Below, in pieces: positions 4,510 to 41,541 of a DNA stretch of 64,000 nucleotides. The notes below the pieces were generated by a model. That model saw only the letters and a list, made by a program, of their open reading frames with translations. It made no database searches and was not told the DNA's origin. The number at the start of each line of letters is the position of its first letter. Positions within the stretch are counted from its first letter, which is position 1. The position numbers and the translations under genes were made by a program. Source of the stretch: an uncultured Actinomycetes bacterium (GTDB taxonomy: Bacteria; Actinomycetota; Actinomycetes; Nanopelagicales; Nanopelagicaceae); assembly GCA_903834145.1 (NCBI GenBank), contig CAILHY010000020.1, positions 1 through 64,000 of the forward strand, written 5' to 3'.

Positions 4510-5453
4510 AAACATATTCGATCATTGATGGCAGTGAAAGTTCGCTGAAGAACTTCCTTAAAACATTGCCTGGCGTAGACCAAGTTGGCGCCGAAGCACG
4601 AGCCGCGATGCTCGCAACACGAAGTATTAAGAATGCAAGTAAAGCCTTTGCCATTGATTTGGCTATCTCCATGGTGGACCTGACAACACTCGAAGGCGCA
4701 GATACTCCTGGCAAAGTCCGTGCTCTCTGTTCGAAAGGTTTGCGACCAGACCCCACCGATTCCACCGTTCCTCATGTTGGGGCGATTTGCGTCTACAACG
4801 ACATGGTGGGCATCGCGAGAAAACATCTCGATGCCATCGGTGGCGAAGAAATACCTATCGCAGCAGTTTCCACAGCATTTCCATCAGGGCGCGCTTCCTT
4901 GGCAGTCAAAATTCAAGATACAGAAGATGCCATTTCTTCAGGCGCCGCCGAAATAGATATGGTCATAGATCGTGGCGCATTTCTATCAGGTCGTTTTGGA
5001 GAAGTTTTCGAAGAGATCCAAATAATTAGAGGTATCTGTGGAGACCGTGCGCATCTTAAAGTAATTCTTGAAACGGGCGAGCTCGTCACTTATGACAATG
5101 TTCGTAAAGCCTCATATTTAGCAATGCTGGCTGGCGCGGACTTCATTAAAACATCAACAGGCAAGGTGGCTCCAGCGGCTACTGCCCCCGTAGTACTGGT
5201 CATGCTCGAAGCCGTTCGTGACTTCTACGAAATGACGGGCACGCGCATTGGCGTGAAGCCAGCTGGTGGAATCCGCAATACCAAAGATGCAATAAAACAA
5301 CTGGTTCTCGTGAACGAAACCGCTGGCCCTGAATGGCTTACTCCGACCCTTTTCCGCATCGGAGCAAGCGCGCTACTTAATGATTTGCTTCAACAACGCA
5401 TGAAGATGCGCGATGGACGATATGCAAGCCCCAACTACGTGACGATCGATTGA
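4506..5453 (+). CDS. deoC: Deoxyribose-phosphate aldolase
   Basis: Cleaves 2-deoxyribose-5-phosphate into acetaldehyde and glyceraldehyde-3-phosphate. The Schiff-base lysine lies in AGADFIKTSTGK near residue 220, and the GTRIGVKPAGGIRN segment carries the second conserved lysine. The GTG at 4506 is chosen because it overlaps the rbsK stop (GTGA) and gives 315 residues, a usual length for the longer actinobacterial DeoC. An in-frame extension to 4338 would lie inside rbsK and is not credible. The next gene, an aldehyde dehydrogenase, could oxidise the acetaldehyde produced. Confidence 0.93.
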   Translation: MKTYSIIDGSESSLKNFLKTLPGVDQVGAEARAAMLATRSIKNASKAFAIDLAISMVDLTTLEGADTPGKVRALCSKGLRPDPTDSTVPHVGAICVYNDMVGIARKHLDAIGGEEIPIAAVSTAFPSGRASLAVKIQDTEDAISSGAAEIDMVIDRGAFLSGRFGEVFEEIQIIRGICGDRAHLKVILETGELVTYDNVRKASYLAMLAGADFIKTSTGKVAPAATAPVVLVMLEAVRDFYEMTGTRIGVKPAGGIRNTKDAIKQLVLVNETAGPEWLTPTLFRIGASALLNDLLQQRMKMRDGRYASPNYVTID

Positions 5454-5455
5454 AA

Positions 5456-6916
5456 ATGAGTGATGAGAAAATGAGCATATTCGAATACGCCCCCGCTCCT
5501 GAATCACAAGCTGTAGTAACAATTGAGCCTGAATACGGACTCTTCATCAACGGCAAATTCATCAACGGCAAGAGACACTTCCCGACAGTTAACCCTGCAA
5601 ATGGCAAGAAGCTCAGTTCCATCTCTCAAGCGAGTGTGGCCGATGTAAATAAAGCTGTGATCGCTGCTCGCACTGCATATGTCAAAGTATGGTCAAAGAT
5701 GGCTCCGGCTGAGCGCGCCAAATATCTCTACCGCATCGCTCGAATTATGCAAGAGCGTGCCCGGGAATTTGCCGTCCTCGAAACTCTCGATAACGGGAAA
5801 CCCATCAGAGAATCGCGTGACGTGGATGTTCCCCTTGCTGCGGCTCACTTTTTCTATCACGCTGGATGGGCAGATAAATTGCAATATGCAGGTTTCGGTG
5901 AAAATCCAAAACCCCATGGCGTTGTTGGACAAATCATCCCATGGAATTTTCCACTTCTTATGTTGGCCTGGAAAGTTGCGCCCGCTCTTGCAACAGGAAA
6001 TACCGTCGTTCTTAAACCTGCTGAATCAACCTCGCTAACGGCGCTTCTATTTGCACAAGTCTGCCAACAAGCCGGGCTACCTGCCGGCGTAGTAAATATT
6101 GTCACGGGCGATGGCGCAGTGGGAGCAGCAATCGTTAATCACCCCGATATCGACAAGATCGCATTCACGGGTTCCACCGAAGTAGGAAAGATCATCGCTC
6201 GTTCTGTAGCTGTCTCTGGCAAGAGTGTCACCCTAGAACTCGGTGGCAAAGGCGCGAACATCGTCTTTGAAGATGCTGCGATTGATGAAGCAGTTGAGGG
6301 AATTGTTAACGGTATCTTCTTTAATCAAGGGCACGTCTGCTGCGCAGGTTCGCGTTTGCTGATTCAAGAAGGCATTCATGATGAGGTCATTGAAAAACTC
6401 AAGCATCGCATGTCCCAAATTCGCGTCGGTGACCCTATGGACAAGAACACTGATTTAGGTGCCATAAATTCAGGCGAGCAACTATCAAAGATTAAAGAAC
6501 TAGCGGCTTCTGGGGTTGCAGAAGGCGCAGAAATCTGGAGCCCCAACTGCGCTTTGCCCGATAAAGGTTTCTGGTTTGCCCCAACTATTTTCTCTGGAGT
6601 CACCCAAGCCCACCGCATCGCACGTGAAGAAATCTTCGGCCCAGTCCTTTCCATTTTGACCTTCCGCACTCCTGCTGAGGCTATAGAGAAGGCGAATAAC
6701 ACCCCTTTCGGCTTATCGGCAGGCATTTGGAGCGAGAAAGGTTCGCGAATTCTCTGGGCCAGTAAGCACTTACAAGCGGGAGTTATCTGGGCAAACACCT
6801 TTAATAAATTTGACCCAACGAGCCCCTTTGGCGGATACAAAGAGTCAGGATGGGGCCGCGAAGGTGGTCGTCATGGCCTCTCGGCATATCTTGCAAGTGG
6901 AAAGGCTGGTAAGTAA
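5456..6916 (+). CDS. NAD(P)-dependent aldehyde dehydrogenase
   Basis: A full-length ALDH-superfamily enzyme of 486 residues. Landmarks: IIPWNFPLLM (about 160-169), KPAESTSL with the cofactor-binding lysine (about 187), FTGSTEVGK (about 237-245), LELGGKGAN with the general-base glutamate (about 261), and FNQGHVCCAGSR with the catalytic cysteine (about 295). The usual GQ before that cysteine is GH here. The ATG at 5456 begins three bases after the deoC stop; a TTG overlapping the stop at 5450 and an ATG at 5471 are alternatives. Directly behind deoC, oxidation of acetaldehyde to acetate is the likely role, as in many actinobacterial deoC loci (inference from context). Confidence 0.87.
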   Translation: MSDEKMSIFEYAPAPESQAVVTIEPEYGLFINGKFINGKRHFPTVNPANGKKLSSISQASVADVNKAVIAARTAYVKVWSKMAPAERAKYLYRIARIMQERAREFAVLETLDNGKPIRESRDVDVPLAAAHFFYHAGWADKLQYAGFGENPKPHGVVGQIIPWNFPLLMLAWKVAPALATGNTVVLKPAESTSLTALLFAQVCQQAGLPAGVVNIVTGDGAVGAAIVNHPDIDKIAFTGSTEVGKIIARSVAVSGKSVTLELGGKGANIVFEDAAIDEAVEGIVNGIFFNQGHVCCAGSRLLIQEGIHDEVIEKLKHRMSQIRVGDPMDKNTDLGAINSGEQLSKIKELAASGVAEGAEIWSPNCALPDKGFWFAPTIFSGVTQAHRIAREEIFGPVLSILTFRTPAEAIEKANNTPFGLSAGIWSEKGSRILWASKHLQAGVIWANTFNKFDPTSPFGGYKESGWGREGGRHGLSAYLASGKAGK

Positions 6917-6919
6917 AAA

Positions 6920-7774
6920 GTGGCTACAGCAAAAACTCCGCGCATTGATGTTATGAAAACTTACAAACTCTTTATCAATGGACAATTTCCCCGCAGTGAA
7001 TCCGGAAGAGTATATGAAGTGAAGTCTGGTACAACTTTTATTGCAAATCCTTCTCAAGCTTCTCGAAAAGATTTACGTGACGCGGTAGTTGCAGCACGTG
7101 CTGCTCAACCCGGTTGGGCTAAGGCAACCGCTTATAACCGCGGACAAATCCTTTATCGAATCGCAGAAGTACTTGAGGGTCGTACCGCCCAATTCGTTGA
7201 AGAAATTTGCCTCCTAGAGAAAGTCACACCTGCCCAAGCCAAACTTCAAGTGGGCACCAGTATCGATCGTTGGGTTTGGTATGCGGGCTGGGCAGACAAG
7301 ATCGCATCAGTATTTGGAGCCACCAACCCTGTTGCTGGTCCGTATTACAACTTCACAATTCCTGAGCCAATGGGAGTTGTCGGAATTCTTGCCCCAGAAA
7401 AACCATCTCTACTTGGACTTATCGATTCCCTAGCACCCGTATTAGTTTCAGGAAATAGCGCAGTGCTTGTGGCAAGCCAGAGCGCACCACTTCCTGCAAT
7501 CTCCTTCTCGGAAGTACTTGCCACCAGCGATCTTCCAGCAGGTGTGTGCAATATTCTTACGGGTTTCAAAGATGAACTTGCACCTTGGATGGCCTCACAC
7601 ATGGATATCAACGCCATGGATATTTCAGGAATTGCCGCGAAATCTCAACCTGCACTTCGCGTTGCGGGGGCCCATAACTTGAAACGAATTTCCTCCTTTA
7701 CCTCCGTTGCAACGCCAGAGCGAATCACCGCGTTCTTGGAAGCGAAGACCGTCTGGCACCCCATCGGCGTGTAG
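6920..7774 (+). CDS. Truncated aldehyde dehydrogenase-like protein (probable pseudoenzyme)
   Basis: A 284-residue relative of the preceding ALDH, starting with GTG three bases after its stop. The N-terminal half aligns by eye (KTYKLFINGQF, WYAGWADKI, PAGVCNILTG). The essential parts are absent: PWNFP has become APEKPS, the cofactor lysine motif KPAE has become VASQS, GSTEVG is lost, and the protein ends where the catalytic cysteine domain would begin. There is no frameshift and the frame stays intact, so it seems maintained rather than decaying. A regulatory or structural partner of the active ALDH (hetero-oligomer) is a reasonable inference. It closes the rbsK-deoC operon. Confidence 0.75.
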   Translation: MATAKTPRIDVMKTYKLFINGQFPRSESGRVYEVKSGTTFIANPSQASRKDLRDAVVAARAAQPGWAKATAYNRGQILYRIAEVLEGRTAQFVEEICLLEKVTPAQAKLQVGTSIDRWVWYAGWADKIASVFGATNPVAGPYYNFTIPEPMGVVGILAPEKPSLLGLIDSLAPVLVSGNSAVLVASQSAPLPAISFSEVLATSDLPAGVCNILTGFKDELAPWMASHMDINAMDISGIAAKSQPALRVAGAHNLKRISSFTSVATPERITAFLEAKTVWHPIGV

Positions 7775-7854
7775 GCAGATTTGATTTCTTGACCAACGGC
7801 TGAGAAATCTTCTTCGGGAAACGTCCTATCACCATCATTGAAGGAAATGGGATA

Positions 7855-7883
7855 TTGGAGCATGGAGCTTTTGAATCTAAACT
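7855..7883 (+). promoter_or_regulatory. Putative sigma70-type promoter of the secreted HExxH protein gene
   Basis: TTGGAG (7855-7860) and TAAACT (7878-7883) are separated by 17 bases. The ATG at 7890 follows only 6 bases after the -10, so the mRNA would be leaderless; no Shine-Dalgarno is present. It lies in the 115-base gap behind the ALDH operon, which otherwise shows no clear terminator. Confidence 0.5.
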
Positions 7884-7889
7884 ATCCTT

Positions 7890-8948
7890 ATGCGTAGAAG
7901 GTTAATAGCTCTTCTAACTTTGCCTGTCTTGGGAACCCTCTTGCTTCCCGCCGCCTCCGCAGCCGTTAAGACAGGAGCAACGTGTCCTAAACTCAACCAA
8001 AGTTTAATAACTGCTGGATATAAATTCACATGCATTAAGTCTGGAAAGAAATTGGTGTGGAGTAACGGTGTAAAAGTTACACTTCAATCTCTTACCGACT
8101 TACATCAAGTTGCTGCAAGGTTTTCGGATATATCATCGTTGGCGTTCAGGGCAAGCCTAGGAACGCTTCGTACTGCTGGTATCGACAATTCAAAGATTGC
8201 CCTTTTTCTAGGTCCTCATTCACAAGACACGGCTCCTAGTGATTTTCTTGCGGTTCGCAATGTGCAAAAACTGTTCTTTGGTTCAAATCTGCCTTCCAAC
8301 ATTGATCTATTTTATTACTCCTCGAGCGATCACGATTGGGCCATAAACAAGATGATGGAGTTGATTCCACGGCCCGAGTACATGAATTCAGATGATGGTC
8401 CTAAAACAGCCACGGATGGAACGGCGATTGTCGCACTTAAATACACGGGTGTTCCGAGCCAGTACGTGACCTCTGGAGCGTTGGAAGCCCACGAATTTTT
8501 CCATACTGTTCAACAAAGGCAGTTCTCCAACTCCCAATTTAAGGTCTGGACGATGCCTCGCTGGTGGATCGAGGGTGGTGGTCGATTCGTCGAAAACCTT
8601 CAACTAGATAATTATGATGAAAAGAAGTATCTACTCATTTCAAAGAATAATGAACTCACTCAGTACAACGCACAGTACTTTTCTGATTTTCTAGATGCCA
8701 CCACAGTCCCCGCAAATGGGGATGCGTGGACAAACTCTTATAACTACAGCACTGCCGTCGTGTATGGAGTTGGAGCCAAAATTCAAGAAATGCTCGTTGC
8801 ATTCAAGGGGCCCTCATCCTTGGTTGGCCTTATGGGTGAGGTGGCAACGAGTGGAGACTTTCTTACGAGCTTCAATAAACTCTATGGGATAACCTGGTCG
8901 GAATTCGTTCCACTTGCGGCACAATCGATTTATCGATCCACCCGGTAA
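7890..8948 (+). CDS. Secreted putative zinc metalloprotease-like protein (HExxH)
   Basis: A 352-residue exported protein that I cannot place in a named family. Order: RRR start and hydrophobic signal peptide with an AASAA cleavage region (1-25); a small two-cysteine module, C32 to C48, ending CIKSGKKLVWSNG, a type I associate with secreted acI proteins; then a larger domain containing HEFFH (201-205) and WWIEGGGRFVE (225-235). HExxH with a downstream W-x-x-E-G-x-x-x-x-x-E helix is the zinc site of gluzincin metallopeptidases, the third ligand probably being E228 or E235. It has no lipobox, so it is secreted or retained by the N-terminal module. Transcription appears to be from its own leaderless promoter. 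Confidence 0.7.
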   Translation: MRRRLIALLTLPVLGTLLLPAASAAVKTGATCPKLNQSLITAGYKFTCIKSGKKLVWSNGVKVTLQSLTDLHQVAARFSDISSLAFRASLGTLRTAGIDNSKIALFLGPHSQDTAPSDFLAVRNVQKLFFGSNLPSNIDLFYYSSSDHDWAINKMMELIPRPEYMNSDDGPKTATDGTAIVALKYTGVPSQYVTSGALEAHEFFHTVQQRQFSNSQFKVWTMPRWWIEGGGRFVENLQLDNYDEKKYLLISKNNELTQYNAQYFSDFLDATTVPANGDAWTNSYNYSTAVVYGVGAKIQEMLVAFKGPSSLVGLMGEVATSGDFLTSFNKLYGITWSEFVPLAAQSIYRSTR

Positions 8949-8962
8949 TTCAACTAATTACC
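8944..8962. terminator. Small inverted repeat spanning two convergent stop codons
   Basis: GGTAATT (8944-8950) and AATTACC (8956-8962) form a 7-bp stem with a 5-base loop that contains the stop codons of both the HExxH protein gene and the convergent rarA. Only three T residues follow on the plus strand, so it would be a weak terminator. Confidence 0.3.
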
Positions 8963-10243
8963 TTTGAGCATCTTACGGATTTGTTCTAGCGCAGTTTTTA
9001 CTCGCGCTTCATAACCGTGAACCGTAGGGTGGTAATACTCCCTACCAACCAATGCATCGGGTAAATACTGTTGCTGAGCAACACCCAGAGCCTCGTCGTG
9101 CGGGTAGATATAAGCAGATGATTCGCGTACTGCGCTTTCCTTCTTATCGCGAAGAGAACCTGAATTAGGATCGCGCAATGGAACAGGCACAGGTCCACCT
9201 TTGCCGGCACGAAGATCTGCGATAGCGGATTCAATCCCAAGGTAGGCAGCATTGGATTTCGGTGCACAGGCAAGATAGGTGACCGCTTCGGCGAGAATGA
9301 TTCGCGCTTCTGGCATTCCAACGAGTGCAACCGCTTGAGCAGCGGCAACGGCTAGCCCTAAAGCCCCGGGATCGGCCATTCCGACATCTTCACTGGCGCT
9401 GATCATCACACGGCGAGCAATAAAGCGTGGATCCTCCCCCGCTTCCAACATGCGAGCCAAATAATGAAGAGCTGCGTCTACATCTGAGCCACGAATGCTC
9501 TTAATGAATGCACTTGCGACGTCGTAATGATTGTCACCGCCTCTGTCATAGTTTTCGATGACACGATCTACTGCTCGGCTTAGTACTTCCGAAGTGATTT
9601 GGCCATTTGAAGCACCTGCTGCTGCTTCAAGATAGGTAAGTGCTCGGCGGGCATCACCTGCTGCGAGCCTGACTAATGAATCAGATGCTTGCGCTGAAAT
9701 CGTGACCTCGTTATTGAGGCCGCGGAGATCGGTAAGTGCGCGATTAATAAGCGTTTCGATATCGTCATCAGAAATTCGCCGAAGAGTAAGCACAATGGAA
9801 CGCGAAAGCAGTGGAGAAATTATGGAGAAGGAAGGGTTCTCTGTTGTTGCGGCTACTAACGTCACCCACCTGTTCTCAACCCCTGGCAACAAAGCATCTT
9901 GTTGGGCTTTGGAAAAACGATGCACCTCGTCAATGAACAGGACTGTCTCTTTATTTTCTTGCTCTAGTCTCTCTTGGGCCTGCGTGAGTACTTCGCGAAC
10001 TTGAGCAACTCCAGAACTCACCGCTGAAAGTTCAACAAAGGTGCGAGAACCAGAATTCGCGATCATCTTGGCAAGGGTTGTTTTACCGCTACCTGGTGGA
10101 CCATAAAGCAGAACACTGGTGATGTGTTTTTCTTGACCCTGAATTAATCGCTCCAGCGGCGAACCAGTTTGCAGGAGGTGTTGCTGACCAAGAATTTCTT
10201 GGAGGGTTGAAGGGCGAAGTCTGACAGCTAACGGCGCGCTCAC
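8954..10243 (-). CDS. rarA: Replication-associated recombination protein A (RarA/MgsA, AAA+ ATPase)
   Basis: A 429-residue AAA+ ATPase acting at stalled replication forks and related to clamp loaders. It has an N-terminal PLAVRLRPSTLQEILGQQHLL segment, Walker A GPPGSGKTT (48-56), Walker B VLFIDEVHRF (101-110), sensor ATTENPSF, and the C-terminal MgsA tetramerisation domain (SEDVGMADPGAL ... REYYHPT). Length is usual. Its ATG overlaps the stop of the upstream P450 gene by 4 bases, which places a DNA-repair ATPase at the end of the nucleoside uptake and salvage operon. Confidence 0.93.
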   Translation of the reverse strand: MSAPLAVRLRPSTLQEILGQQHLLQTGSPLERLIQGQEKHITSVLLYGPPGSGKTTLAKMIANSGSRTFVELSAVSSGVAQVREVLTQAQERLEQENKETVLFIDEVHRFSKAQQDALLPGVENRWVTLVAATTENPSFSIISPLLSRSIVLTLRRISDDDIETLINRALTDLRGLNNEVTISAQASDSLVRLAAGDARRALTYLEAAAGASNGQITSEVLSRAVDRVIENYDRGGDNHYDVASAFIKSIRGSDVDAALHYLARMLEAGEDPRFIARRVMISASEDVGMADPGALGLAVAAAQAVALVGMPEARIILAEAVTYLACAPKSNAAYLGIESAIADLRAGKGGPVPVPLRDPNSGSLRDKKESAVRESSAYIYPHDEALGVAQQQYLPDALVGREYYHPTVHGYEARVKTALEQIRKMLKGN

Positions 10244-11424
10244 GCCTGTATCTCCACGCTTTCATACCCACGTAATACGAAAGTCGGCCTGCGAATCGGT
10301 TCGCTGGCTAATTCCATATTTGGGAAACGCTCACAGAGCGCAGGCAATGAAATGCCCATCTCTAAGCGCGCTAATGGGCCACCTAAACAAAAGTGAATAC
10401 CCGCCCCAAAACCAATATGTGGGTTTGGATCGCGTAGTAAGTCCATATCATCCGGGCGGTCAAATACATCGGCATCACGATTCGCTGATCCGATTAGAGC
10501 CGCAATTTTTTGGCCAGGTTCAATAGTGACCCCGCCAAGTTCAGTGATTTGCGTTGCGGTTCGCTCAAAGAGGTGAAGTGGAGCATCAAAGCGTAAGAAT
10601 TCTTCCACTGCGGTTTCTGCGATGTCGCGAGATTTGCTCCGCAAGAGTTCTGCTTGATCTGGGCGGCGAAGTGCAGCGACCATTCCATTTCCGAATGCAT
10701 TTACACTTGCTTCGTGGCCGGCATTGAGAAGCAATACGCACGTCGCTACAAGTTCTTGGGCGTTGAGTTTTTCGCCACCCTCCTCCACAGCCGCTAGATC
10801 GCTGATGAGGTCACTACCAGGGTTCACTTTTCGCTCCAGCATTAATCCCCGCACATAGTCGGCGAACTCTCGCGCTGCAGTCTTTGCCTCTTCTTGATGA
10901 GCAAGGGATGGTGAAACCTCATACATCTTGACAATGGATTGTGACCAAGGGCGAAGCAAGTGTTCATCAGAGGCAGGAAAGCCCAGGAGCGCCGCAATTA
11001 CCTTCACAGGTAGGGGTTCTGCGAAGTCAGCGATCAGATCAAAGGTTTTTCCATCATTGACCTTGATGGAAATATCCTCAATGAGTTCTTGAGTGAGCCG
11101 TTCAATATCTGGGCGCAATCCTTCAATTTTTTGGCGATTAAAAGCCTTGGCAACAAGTGAGCGCAAGCGTGTGTGCTTGGGCGGTTCGCTATCAAGAAGA
11201 GAATCGGAGTGGAGCCAGTTGAAAACTTCCCATTCAAACTCAGGTGTACGTTCTTTGAAGATACGACCCAAAGTCTTTGTACGAAAGACTGCATTGGCAT
11301 GTTCGTGATTGGGCGCCAGGAAGAGTTGTAGGCCCTCGTGCCACACAGGTTTGCCATGAGCTCGTAGCTCTTTGAGCGCAGGGTATGGATCAATGAGGAA
11401 TTGTGGATCCGAAAAATCGATCAA
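10240..11424 (-). CDS. Cytochrome P450 (bacterial soluble type)
   Basis: A 394-residue P450 monooxygenase. The heme-binding motif is FGAGIHFCLGG (339-349, Cys346 as iron ligand); the K-helix ExxR is in EEFLRFDAP; the I-helix LNAGHEASVNAF carries the acid (HE), but the usual following threonine is alanine then serine. It has no membrane anchor. The start abuts the add stop and the end overlaps rarA by 4 bases, so it lies inside the nucleoside operon. No ferredoxin or reductase gene is nearby. The substrate cannot be deduced; the operon context allows modified nucleosides as a hypothesis only. Confidence 0.9.
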   Translation of the reverse strand: MIDFSDPQFLIDPYPALKELRAHGKPVWHEGLQLFLAPNHEHANAVFRTKTLGRIFKERTPEFEWEVFNWLHSDSLLDSEPPKHTRLRSLVAKAFNRQKIEGLRPDIERLTQELIEDISIKVNDGKTFDLIADFAEPLPVKVIAALLGFPASDEHLLRPWSQSIVKMYEVSPSLAHQEEAKTAAREFADYVRGLMLERKVNPGSDLISDLAAVEEGGEKLNAQELVATCVLLLNAGHEASVNAFGNGMVAALRRPDQAELLRSKSRDIAETAVEEFLRFDAPLHLFERTATQITELGGVTIEPGQKIAALIGSANRDADVFDRPDDMDLLRDPNPHIGFGAGIHFCLGGPLARLEMGISLPALCERFPNMELASEPIRRPTFVLRGYESVEIQA

Positions 11425-12519
11425 TTACTCAGCCGCAATCGATGCATAGCCTGGCTTAATGATCGACTCAATAATTTCCAAACGTTGAGGGTAGGGAATA
11501 AAGGCGCTCTTCATCGCATTAATCGTGACTCTTTGCAATTCTGCAAGGTCCCAATTAAATGCCTTGACCACCTCTTCCATTTCAAAAGACATCGAAGTTT
11601 GACTCATAAGGCGATTATCCGTGTTGAGTGTGACGCGAAAACGTAATTTCGCGAGGACTCCGATTGGATGTTCGCCGATGTTTTTCGCAGCGCCCGTTTG
11701 TAAATTAGATGTCGGGCAAAGCTCCAAAGGGATGCGTCGATCACGAACGTAGGATGCAAGCAAACCCAACTTAGGTTCGGGTCCACTCATATCGATGTCG
11801 TCGATGATGCGAACGCCGTGTCCTAAACGCTCTGCGCCACATAATTGAATGGCTTCCCAAATAGAAGGAAGTCCGTATGCCTCACCTGCGTGAATCGTGA
11901 AGTGAGCATTTTCATGACGTAAATAATCAAATGCTTCTTGTTGATCACTTGGTGGAAAACCATCCTCAGGTCCAGCAATATCAAATCCAACAACACCTTT
12001 GTCGCGATACTTCACGACAAGTTCTGCCACCTCATCAGAGCGCTTGTTCTGGCGCATTCCACAAAGGAGTGCCTGGACCTGGATAGTGAAACCTTCCGCC
12101 TTTGCATCGGATTCACCGAGGCGGTAGCCCGCCAATGTTGCATCAATAACATCGGAAAGAGTGAGTCCTTGCTCGGTGAAGAGTTCGGGCGCACCACGTA
12201 CTTCAGCGTAGACAACGCCATCTCGTGCAAGATCTAGTGCACATTCGCGCGCTACGCGTGTGATTCCTTCGCGAGTCTGCATAACGGCAATGGTGTGAGA
12301 GAAAGTTTCAAGGTAGCGGACAAGAGATCCAGAATCGCAAGATTCGCGAAACCATGTAGCCAATTCAGCAGCATCCGTTGTAGGAAGCAGGGTGTAACCA
12401 ATTTCTTGAGCAATATCGATAATGGTCTGAGGACGCAGTCCGCCATCCAAGTGATCATGCAAGAGAACTTTTGGAATTCGCTTGATCTGATCCTTAGTAG
12501 GGATAATTTTCATACTCAC
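11425..12519 (-). CDS. add: Adenosine deaminase
   Basis: A 364-residue zinc deaminase converting adenosine and deoxyadenosine to inosine and deoxyinosine. It has the N-terminal metal site HDHLDGG (H21, H23), the catalytic HAGEAYG segment, ERLGHGVRI, and LNTDNRLMS where the family usually has NTDDP; this last variation is worth noting. Start choice: GTG at 12519 or ATG two codons later (12513); neither has a strong Shine-Dalgarno. It sits 10 bases behind deoA and directly before the P450 gene in the nup-cdd-deoA-add operon. Confidence 0.92.
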
Positions 12520-12529
12520 GATAGCGCTT

Positions 12530-13834
12530 CTACCCTTCGATACGTTCGAGAATTAATGGCATGCGATCCACCTTACCGCCTTGAGGTAATTGACCAATAA
12601 TTACGCTATCGCTCAAAATCTCTTGCGCACGTGCAAAACGCTCTGGAGTATCTGTATGTAAGGTGAATATTGGAGATCCAGCGGTTATGACTTCACCTGG
12701 CTTGCAATGAATCTCGATACCAGCCCCCGCTTGCACTTGTTCTCCTTGACGAGAGCGTCCTGCCCCCAATCTCCATACAGCGACGCCAACTTTCATTGCA
12801 TCCATCGAAAGCATCGTCCCGGAGCTCGGTGCGCTTATTACTAATTGTTCTCGTGCTACAGGTAGGGGTGCATCGGGATTGCCACCTTGCGCGCTAATCA
12901 TGGTTCGCCATACATCCATGGCGCTTCCATCTTTCAGCGCCTTCTCTGGATCTTTACCGGATATTCCGGCCGCATCCAACATTTCTCTGGCAAGAATGAG
13001 AGTCAGTTCAACGATGTCATTGGGCCCACCACCAGCAAGAACTTCAACAGATTCACGAACTTCAAGTGCGTTACCGGCAGTCATTCCCAGTGGAACATCC
13101 ATAGCTGTAACAAGTGCGCGCGTATTTACACCGGCACGTTTGCCCAGATCTACCATCGTTCTCGCTAATTCTTTGGCGCGCTCTGGGTCAGCCATAAATG
13201 CACCGACGCCAGTTTTAACATCCAGAATAAGGGCGCTCGTTCCTTCAGCAATCTTCTTGCTCATGATCGAGGATGCAATCAAAGGAATCGCTTCAACAGT
13301 GGCGGTGACATCACGTAGCGCATAAAGTTTTTTATCTGCTGGAGCAAGTCCCGCACCTGCAGCGCAGATAACAGCGCCGCACTTTTGTAAGACTGCCAGC
13401 ATTTCTTCATTAGAAATCGATGCGCGCCACCCTGGGATGGATTCCAACTTATCGAGCGTGCCGCCGGTATGACCCAACCCACGGCCCGAAAGCTGTGGAA
13501 CTGCGCCTCCACAAGCAGCAACGAGAGGTGCAAGTGGCAAAGTAATTTTGTCGCCCACTCCCCCTGTTGAATGCTTATCGACAGTGGGTCGATCTAGCGC
13601 CGACCAATTCATGCGTTCGCCGCTATTGATCATGGCATCGGTCCATCGTGCAATTTCGTGAGACCCCATGCCGTTGAGAAGGATCGCCATCAAGAGTGCA
13701 GACATTTGTTCATCAGCAACAACACCGCGTGTGTAGGCGTCAATGACCCAATCGATTTGGGGATCCGTTAAAACATTGCGATCACGTTTTGCGGCAATGA
13801 TTTCTACTGCAGAGAATGATTCGACGGCGCTCAT
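12530..13834 (-). CDS. deoA: Thymidine/pyrimidine-nucleoside phosphorylase
   Basis: A 434-residue phosphorylase cleaving thymidine, deoxyuridine (and perhaps uridine) to base plus (deoxy)ribose-1-phosphate. The phosphate-binding glycine-rich segment [10 protein letters not shown] is at 87-96, followed by [20 protein letters not shown] and, later, the SLPLP-region equivalent and a C-terminal domain. It starts immediately after the cdd stop, consistent with co-translation. Its sugar-phosphate product would feed the mutase (window start) and deoC. Confidence 0.93.
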
Positions 13835-14236
13835 TTATCGTTCGTTGCGATCAAGATCATCGGGACCAAATGCCCAAGGCAACATCGCCGACATTTTCAT
13901 CGGGCCATCTGGAGTCATCAAGACAAGCTCGGGTCCACCGTGTTCGAAGAGCAACTGGCGGCATCGACCACACGGCGCTAAATAATCACCTTTGCCATCA
14001 ACGCAAAGAACGGCAACTAAACGACCGCCACCTGTTGCAGCAAGAGATGAGACCATGCCGCATTCGGCACACAGTCCTAAGCCGTAACTAGCATTTTCCA
14101 CGTTGCAGCCAGAAACAATGCGCCCATCGCTCACGAGGCCAGCAACACCCACTGGGAATTTTGAATACGGAACATAAGCGCTTTTGCTGATTGCGATCGC
14201 AGCAGCATGCAACTCTTCCCAATTGGGATTAAGCAT
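13835..14236 (-). CDS. cdd: Cytidine deaminase
   Basis: A 133-residue homotetrameric-type cytidine/deoxycytidine deaminase. The zinc site is complete: C56-A-E58 with the proton-shuttling glutamate, and PCGRC with C89 and C92; SGCNVENASYG is the substrate-binding segment. The product, (deoxy)uridine, is a substrate of the phosphorylase encoded next. The gene begins 9 bases after the permease stop within the transporter operon. Confidence 0.94.
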   Translation of the reverse strand: MLNPNWEELHAAAIAISKSAYVPYSKFPVGVAGLVSDGRIVSGCNVENASYGLGLCAECGMVSSLAATGGGRLVAVLCVDGKGDYLAPCGRCRQLLFEHGGPELVLMTPDGPMKMSAMLPWAFGPDDLDRNER

Positions 14237-37989: not shown

Positions 37990-40224
<2,235 letters not shown>

Positions 40225-40233
40225 TCGGTGTGG

Positions 40234-41148
40234 CTAGAGTCCAACCGCCCGCGAAATCTCCTCGCACGTTGAGGCAAGGTCATCGACAAAGTGGGCATCA
40301 GGACACGCTTCACGATCCCAGCCTGGACCACCTAAAAGAATCCGCGGAGCGGGGCGAACCTTAGGCAAATTCCGGAAAAATTGCGGGTCGGCATTCTCGC
40401 TCATGATTGCCCAGAGAAATATCGCTGGCGGGGCAACGCGTGAAACCATCGCTATAACCGCTTCGTTCGGGGTGCGCGCGCCTAGGTAATATGAGGCAAT
40501 ATTTCTCTCGGCTAGCGCAGCCTTGACCGCTATCAGCGCAATATTGTGTTGCTCTTCCGAAACTGCCGCGAGCAACACCGGACGCGTGTTGCGCGCCTCG
40601 GTCAATTCCACCCGGTGAAGGCATCGCTTGACGATTTCAGAAACCAGATGTTCGACTTCTATGCCGGCATCAGTGCGCTGCCATTCTTGACCAATTTTTA
40701 CAAGCAACGGAACGATGATCTCTTGCCAAGTCTTGATAACGCCTTCATCGCAAATTGCCTTGTTGAGGCTAGCTTCCAGAAATCTTGCATCGAGTCCATA
40801 TGCTGCGCGAAAAAGTGAGGTGACAACGTCATCACGAATCAGCGCAGGTTCCATTTCAGGTATGTGCGTAACTGGGCCCGTGTACTGCTTGGCCAACTCT
40901 GCGGCCTGCGCTGGAAGAATCCCCGAAACGATCAGGCGACGCATGTGAAGAAGTTTTGCCAGATCCTCATGGGAGTAGCGGCGATGTTGGCCACTTTCAT
41001 GTTGGGAAGGCCCTAAACCATATCTGCGATCCCACGTACGCAAAGTTGCCGGCGCAATAGCCATGACGCGAGCCACGCCAGCAACGCTGAGGAACTCCTG
41101 GGTCTGGGTCACAGGGCTATTTTGCAGGGACTTTCCTGCCTGCACCAC
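40234..41148 (-). CDS. MerR-family regulator with CarH/LitR-type cobalamin-binding domain
   Basis: A 304-residue regulator. An N-terminal MerR helix-turn-helix (about 20-70) has APATLRTWDRRYG and HRRYSHEDLAKL. A four-helix cap contains W156 and E166-H167, an exact W-x9-EH, the motif that marks the AdoCbl light-sensing site of CarH. The Rossmann-like B12 domain follows: VSEEQHNIAL with H201 as candidate axial ligand, although the usual E-x-H-x-x-G ends in alanine. LLGGPGWD is near the end. By analogy it would repress DNA in the dark and release it in light. The start is uncertain (tandem GTGs at 41148 and 41145). It is divergent from whiB across a candidate operator. Confidence 0.85.
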   Translation of the reverse strand: MVQAGKSLQNSPVTQTQEFLSVAGVARVMAIAPATLRTWDRRYGLGPSQHESGQHRRYSHEDLAKLLHMRRLIVSGILPAQAAELAKQYTGPVTHIPEMEPALIRDDVVTSLFRAAYGLDARFLEASLNKAICDEGVIKTWQEIIVPLLVKIGQEWQRTDAGIEVEHLVSEIVKRCLHRVELTEARNTRPVLLAAVSEEQHNIALIAVKAALAERNIASYYLGARTPNEAVIAMVSRVAPPAIFLWAIMSENADPQFFRNLPKVRPAPRILLGGPGWDREACPDAHFVDDLASTCEEISRAVGL

Positions 41149-41185: not shown

Positions 41186-41189
41186 CAAG

Positions 41190-41218
41190 TTGAACAATCT
41201 ATGCAACGGTTGTAGAGT
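41190..41218 (+). promoter_or_regulatory. Putative sigma70-type promoter of whiB
   Basis: TTGAAC (41190-41195), 17-base spacer, TAGAGT (41213-41218). The transcript would start near 41225, giving a short leader with AGGAG (41232-41236) five bases before the ATG at 41242. Confidence 0.6.
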
Positions 41219-41241: not shown

Positions 41242-41541
41242 ATGGCTGAGATATCTCGTCTTCCCAAACCGATTGCTGATTTGTGGCAATGGCAATATTC
41301 CGGTGCTTGCCAAGACTTGCCCTCTGAAATCTTCTTCCACCCGGATGGGGAGCGCGGTCCTCGTAGACGAAATCGCGAAAACACGGCTAAAGCCATATGC
41401 GCGGCCTGCCCTGTGATTCAACAATGTCGCACTCATGCCTTGAGCGTTCAAGAACCTTACGGAATTTGGGGCGGCCTGAGTGAAGATGATCGCTTAGCGA
41501 TCCTGGGTAACAACGATGGGGATATTTCACACGCGTCTTAA
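41242..41541 (+). CDS. whiB: WhiB-family iron-sulfur transcriptional regulator
   Basis: A 99-residue Wbl protein. Four cysteines (C23, C53, C56, C62, giving C-x2-C-x5-C for the last three) can hold a [4Fe-4S] cluster; GIWGG (74-78) is the turn that contacts the sigma factor; a few charged residues follow. Upstream RRRNRENTAKAICAACP is typical. The ATG at 41242 has AGGAG at a 5-base spacing. Wbl proteins work with the primary sigma factor and respond to redox or nutrient state. The subclass (WhiB1/WblE-like or other) is not certain. It is divergent from the CarH-like regulator. Confidence 0.92.
   Translation: MAEISRLPKPIADLWQWQYSGACQDLPSEIFFHPDGERGPRRRNRENTAKAICAACPVIQQCRTHALSVQEPYGIWGGLSEDDRLAILGNNDGDISHAS

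Follow-up and report, generated by a model that had tools for sequence, protein, structure and literature searches.

The gene described here, which lies in a 64,000-nt window (the whole stretch of DNA that was analysed) from an uncultured member of the Nanopelagicaceae (acI), most likely encodes, as judged from sequence, a photoreceptor-type MerR regulator. The regulator is real and conserved; it is of the LitR/CarH kind, with a predicted change in the cobalamin-tail pocket that extends across its clade, and it very probably has WhiB as its single target. Taken as a whole, the interpretation of the locus as a dedicated, one-target LitR/CarH-type switch of whiB appears reasonably probable. The initial annotation, which described a CarH-like cobalamin photoreceptor, covered neither the pocket residue W246 nor the divergent whiB promoter as the probable target. 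The aspects that are new here are the fixed divergent pairing with whiB, the presence of a merR-dependent 25-bp element once per genome, and the clade-wide tail-pocket change that includes W246.

The domains, the key residues and the regulatory element are collected in Table 1. The MerR helix-turn-helix that was previously noted is borne out by a Pfam match above the cut-off; the positions assigned to H201 and to W156 and E166-H167, with their W-x9-EH spacing, are exact, and the E-x-H-x-x-A variant is indeed present as E199-Q-H201-N-I-A204, Ala or Pro at the last position being a trait of the clade. The B12 domain itself is recognized by a match below the Pfam cut-off together with the fold. 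Among the 128 distinct Nanopelagicaceae orthologues in which residue conservation was counted, E199 is Glu in 126 and Asp in 2, and the GG of the B12 motif (G273-G274) is kept in all. The designation CarH-like holds with respect to homology (the best solved relative is Thermus thermophilus CarH, TtCarH, E 4e-22), domain order, the W/E/H cap and the axial His; it does not extend to membership in the NCBIfam CarH equivalog NF052513, for which the score is 102.7 bits against a cut-off of 400.

Table 1. Features of the merR-whiB locus (positions in the window)
Feature	Coordinates	Strand	Evidence and remarks
MerR/B12-domain regulator gene, LitR/CarH type	40234..41148	minus	ORF, GTG start, 304 aa; orthologues known
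MerR winged helix-turn-helix, DNA-binding, residues 21-87	40888..41088	minus	Pfam MerR_1 PF13411, 44.1 bits, above cut-off
Four-helix bundle, B12-binding_2, residues 111-179	40612..40818	minus	PF02607, 36.2 bits, above cut-off; model helices 106-178
Rossmann B12-binding domain, residues 191-279	40312..40578	minus	PF02310, 26.5 bits against cut-off 32.1 (below); CarH/photocobilin fold, Z 19-21
W156 codon, W of Wx9EH, predicted adenosyl cap	40681..40683	minus	conserved in 128/128
E166-H167 codons, EH of Wx9EH	40648..40653	minus	E 128/128, H 127/128
H201 codon, expected lower axial ligand of cobalt	40546..40548	minus	128/128; aligns with TtCarH H177
A204 codon, Gly/Pro position of CarH E-x-H-x-x-G/P	40537..40539	minus	A 100, P 25, V 2, T 1, G 0 (n=128)
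W246 codon, replaces CarH cobalamin-tail Ser	40411..40413	minus	Trp 128/128; Ser in aligned TtCarH and CtMerR
guaB2 (IMP dehydrogenase), conserved neighbour downstream of merR	39091..40209	minus	locus marker; role in switch not known
whiB, class III (WhiB3/WhiD type), divergent from merR, likely target	41242..41541	plus	PF02467, 84.7 bits; synteny
Putative whiB promoter/operator element	41187..41218	plus	TTGAAC 41190-41195, 17-bp spacer, TAGAGT 41213-41218; 25-bp core 41190-41214
Dyad arms of operator element	41194-41199 and 41208-41213	plus	conservation

With its MerR helix-turn-helix, four-helix bundle followed by a Rossmann B12 module, Wx9EH, axial His within E/D-x-H, and GG, the protein displays most of the features of class I LitR/CarH proteins, and it shares with TtCarH the domain order, Wx9EH, axial His, GG and fold (Z about 19). 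In contrast, the two proteins are only 27% identical, and the acI protein lacks the Gly after the axial His and has Trp in place of the tail Ser. The B12 motif of CarH and MetH has the form E/D-x-H-x2-G(P)-x41-S-x-T/V-x22-27-GG (PMC8156234, PMC9304148). In the acI protein the residue three positions past the axial His is A204, the broad G/P form being found in the part of the family that has Pro, and 41 residues beyond it W246 occupies the site of the Ser of x41-S-x-T/V. In SAerR, Thr189 bonds the dimethylbenzimidazole nitrogen, with Ser or Ala found instead in MetH and CarH (PMC9144470); by this comparison of sequences, W246 would represent a marked change in the cobalamin-tail pocket.

The structure prediction and comparison with Thermus CarH that the initial annotation had proposed as a check yielded a confident model that matches the B12 domains of CarH and the photocobilins (AlphaFold2 with an alignment of 45 sequences; mean pLDDT 84.5, block means of about 85-96 across residues 111-304). 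The best fold match of the B12 module is the photocobilin SasPcob (8j2x; Z 21.1, rmsd 2.5, 197 aligned), followed by CtMerR (8jbt, Z 19.4) and TtCarH (5c8a, Z 19.3), and by the AppA SCHIC domain and MetH at about 17. Since these matches span several ligand types, the fold alone cannot choose between AdoCbl, haem and no ligand. The ligand residues favour AdoCbl: from the TtCarH alignment and the fold match, W156, H167, H201 and W246 are predicted to line the pocket, and AdoCbl is, in our estimate, quite likely to be the ligand. A supply of the coenzyme is indicated by a PduO-type adenosyltransferase, which this genome and 82 of 83 good genomes of the family encode, and its use by NrdJ, an AdoCbl-dependent ribonucleotide reductase that is likewise encoded here. 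Elsewhere in the same genome (G000:C8, L206), genes for an MttC-like corrinoid protein (4684-5349, minus strand), an IclR-type regulator and an MttB-like methyltransferase (6069-7661, plus strand) are adjacent, and could possibly constitute a B12-dependent methylamine/betaine demethylation system.

Orthologues of the regulator were detected in 105 of 151 Nanopelagicaceae genomes, named relatives including Candidatus Planktophila versatilis and Actinobacteria bacterium IMCC26103; a 106th match, in G094, is a paralogue (23%) and was excluded from this count. In the maximum-likelihood tree, the acI orthologues comprise one clade (95/95) within an actinobacterial LitR-like clade that is split by a 100/99 branch from TtCarH, two acI paralogues of the ordinary CarH type and the HxxG forms of the phylum, TtCarH being on a long branch and its exact placement unsure. 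The ordinary CarH-type B12-domain MerR proteins of two acI-family genomes (L055:5156-6034 in G133:C2, and L056:4736-5653 in G094:C8) have HEIG/HEMG and keep the Ser; both genes adjoin a fasciclin-domain gene, and G133 has its copy beside the LitR-like gene. No viral relatives were found, whether by protein or by operator searches.

The signature of the LitR-like clade, H-x-x-P/A with an aromatic residue in place of Ser, also occurs in homologues from several families of the wider class. The Streptomyces members adjoin an ECF sigma gene and/or crtI (L202 has both), and crtI is the neighbour of a clade homologue in two further families and in Nonomuraea. By gene neighbourhood, which is as expected of litR-litS-crt, the Streptomyces members would be orthologues of Streptomyces coelicolor LitR, described as a coenzyme-B12-based photosensor that promotes litS transcription in the light and whose dark repression is also strengthened by B12 (PMC12705666). 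Because the Streptomyces members fit litR-litS-crt and S. coelicolor LitR is described as a B12 photosensor, the clade signature is probably compatible with B12 light sensing. The Streptomyces relatives share with the acI proteins both H-x-x-P/A and Trp at the tail-Ser position, and in both cases the controlled neighbour is itself a sigma factor or a sigma-partner transcription factor. They differ in that the acI target is whiB rather than litS/crt, in having Wx10EH where acI has Wx9EH, and in the loss of GxxH in acI, at 32-36% identity. Within the clade, three members from family f4 (L196, L197, L198) retain the axial His and EH but have no Trp at the first position of Wx9EH; crtI is near the regulator in L196 and L197, and two such regulators are close together in L197 and L198. 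The Nonomuraea homologue near crtI (L238) is in NZ_LT559118.1, an 11.85-Mb record filed as a plasmid and evidently a chromosome.

The published light signature of cobalamin-binding domains (SignatureFinder) is represented by GxxW (G153/W156), EH (E166-H167) and GxxxP (G223/P227); GxxH, one of its four elements, is absent, residue 198 being E, and in most orthologues the Gly of this element sits one residue earlier. In fold, the B12 module comes closest to the photocobilins SasPcob and AbPcob and to CtMerR (Z 19-21), in which an AdoCbl-based light response has been demonstrated (PMC10979010, PMC11796333), the photocobilins differing in that they lack a MerR domain and contain a globin domain that binds a bilin. 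Judged by the behaviour of CarH and S. coelicolor LitR, there is a somewhat better than even prospect that light changes the output of the acI regulator. The rationale originally offered for such coupling, namely the use of rhodopsins by acI bacteria, fails: this genome (98.6% completeness) has no PF01036 match, and in the 151 family genomes the presence of rhodopsin is uncorrelated with that of merR (both, merR alone, rhodopsin alone and neither in 84/21/34/12; Fisher p = 0.40, phylogeny ignored). Neither does the gene have the linkage of a carotenogenesis regulator, as the crt cluster of this genome is on another contig (C28), where no copy of the operator was found. That cluster (G000:C28, L204, about 7620-14163) encodes phytoene synthase, CrtI and a second CrtI-like protein in a genome without a rhodopsin match.

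The upper cobalt ligand of the TtCarH light state is His132; in the acI orthologues the corresponding residue 157, directly after W156, is E, A, Q, V, K or S and never His (0/128). The leading alternative, which we deem unlikely, is that the protein senses AdoCbl and not light, reporting the level of coenzyme B12 to whiB, with photolysis being incidental or silent as the light-state His is missing. Consistent with such a role, the H132A variant of TtCarH still binds AdoCbl yet mostly stays tetrameric after light, rather than falling apart (PMC10442372), and both the use of AdoCbl by NrdJ and the independence of merR from rhodopsin would be accommodated. However, the W/E/H cap is near-invariant, CtMerR is light-responsive without a bis-His state (PMC11796333), and the relatives in the clade are linked to crt genes, S. 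coelicolor LitR being a reported B12 photosensor (PMC12705666).

A further and rather improbable alternative is that the B12 domain is degenerate, with the Trp in the tail pocket and Ala/Pro for Gly preventing cobalamin binding; it would then mediate dimerization independently of B12 or accept a different ligand, in the manner of class II/III LitR, CarA and AppA. The universal W246 with A/P204 and the subthreshold Pfam match are compatible with this possibility, as are the function of CarA and class II LitR without B12 (PMC8156234, PMC9758184) and the shared fold of the AppA SCHIC domain. Against it, the axial His and the adenosyl-capping W/E/H residues are constrained beyond the needs of a scaffold, and the Streptomyces clade members beside ECF sigma and crtI have the same Trp at the tail position. 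Moreover, Myxococcus xanthus CarA, which likewise combines MerR with a B12 module and acts without B12, has lost the Trp of Wx9EH, whereas this residue is invariant in the acI orthologues.

With respect to the target, merR is divergent from whiB in all tabulated orthologous acI loci, with guaB normally on the other side. The product of whiB matches WhiB3 (8cyf, E 7e-33) and contains the EPYGIWGG motif with its EPY triplet; NCBIfam gave no match for the WhiB protein. Across the 151 genomes both genes, merR alone, whiB alone and neither occur in 104/1/13/33, so that merR is almost never present without whiB and whiB is sometimes present without merR. Directly upstream of whiB lies TACTTGAACAACCTATGGCGCGGTTGTATGGT or a close variant, most positions carrying 1.4-1.9 bits, in which a TTGAAC hexamer and TAnnnT are separated by a 17-bp spacer and a 20-bp dyad, ACAACC-N8-GGTTGT, is centred in the spacer; the four outer dyad pairs hold in 117-125 of 126 sites. 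A simple sigma-70 scan found nothing, the promoter hexamers being below threshold, and the -35/-10 reading thus rests on conservation and position. The operator differs from that of CarH in consisting of one 20-bp dyad rather than three 11-bp direct repeats: the half-site TACTTGAACAA fits the CarH-type pattern nAnnTnnACAn, no tandem of three was found, and the dyad fits better. As a separate observation, loci of genus g16 (L019, L022, L024 and others) have a weaker second half site, TGAACAACNTNTGGAGCG, 26 bp upstream of the main operator, which might perhaps provide a second binding step or merR autoregulation.

The element was found in 126 of 128 merR-containing loci, with a median score of 48 bits, the exceptions being the distant outgroups L085 and L086, and it is gone from all 13 loci that keep whiB and lack merR (Fisher 1.3e-16, phylogeny ignored), one of which, L213, is only partly informative as its contig ends 45 bases upstream of whiB. 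These losses of merR span three genera (g1, g15 and g2), which implies at least three loss events. Whole-genome scans with the pattern gave one site, at whiB, in 17/17 genomes with merR and none in 3 genomes without it; within the 64,000-nt window the chance expectation of the 41190-41214 site is 0.00. A wider regulon was considered and rejected, the scan of these 20 genomes having returned the whiB site alone apart from a 3-mismatch match in G061 that we attribute to chance. The comparative sequence data thus make a strong case for the whiB promoter as what the protein controls via the predicted operator, with hardly any further targets, and it is very probable that the 25-bp element mediates this targeting. 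That the element is instead a site for WhiB itself or for another factor at the whiB promoter is quite improbable: it does overlap the whiB core promoter, and Wbl proteins act with sigma-A at the -35 element (PMC6282962), but its disappearance with merR in three genera and the absence of any other site in the scanned genomes, including those with other Wbl genes, argue against such an origin. A search of the literature on acI diel expression or on a MerR-WhiB link found nothing relevant.

Under the favoured interpretation, a one-target LitR/CarH-type switch, the MerR domain would bind the 20-bp dyad, which takes up the spacer separating the -35-like from the -10-like element in the divergent whiB promoter, and the C-terminal module would bind AdoCbl, with H201 below the cobalt and W156, E166 and H167 capping the adenosyl group. 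A 17-bp spacer suits sigma-A as it is, so that in the simplest case a regulator bound across it would be a repressor. If the protein behaves as CarH and S. coelicolor LitR do, its AdoCbl-bound form would keep the whiB promoter shut in the dark, and Co-C photolysis in the light would release the regulator or make it an activator, a LitR-style switch to activation being possible. Either light or a loss of AdoCbl would thereby increase the amount of an Fe-S transcription factor of the WhiB3/WhiD type. Counting against this explanation are the replacement of the tail-pocket Gly and Ser by Ala/Pro and Trp, the missing GxxH and the absence of His132.

The acI locus resembles the whiB3 locus of Mycobacterium and the whiD locus of Streptomyces in that a class III Wbl gene is beside groEL/groES/tsaD and guaB; it differs in having the B12-domain MerR gene between whiB and guaB. 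The merR-whiB pair is also present in four other families (L190, L193, L194, L199), and since these branch low in the clade, the pair may be the older wiring and the control of litS/crt derived. A bolder and rather improbable proposal is that Trp and Ala/Pro reshape the dimethylbenzimidazole-tail pocket and that the regulator reads another corrinoid (one that has no tail or carries a different lower base), or binds AdoCbl with its tail placed in a new way, reporting with or without light to the Fe-S protein WhiB via a one-operator switch older than the Streptomyces litS/crt wiring.

Cells of the acI actinobacteria rank with the most abundant in lakes, and a conserved regulator of the B12-photoreceptor type bears on light sensing in this group apart from rhodopsins. 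The acI orthologues offer a natural series of Trp-for-Ser variants of the tail pocket for B12 photobiology. Furthermore, the single operator at the WhiB gene defines a concrete, testable circuit in which light or B12 would be coupled to an Fe-S redox regulator.
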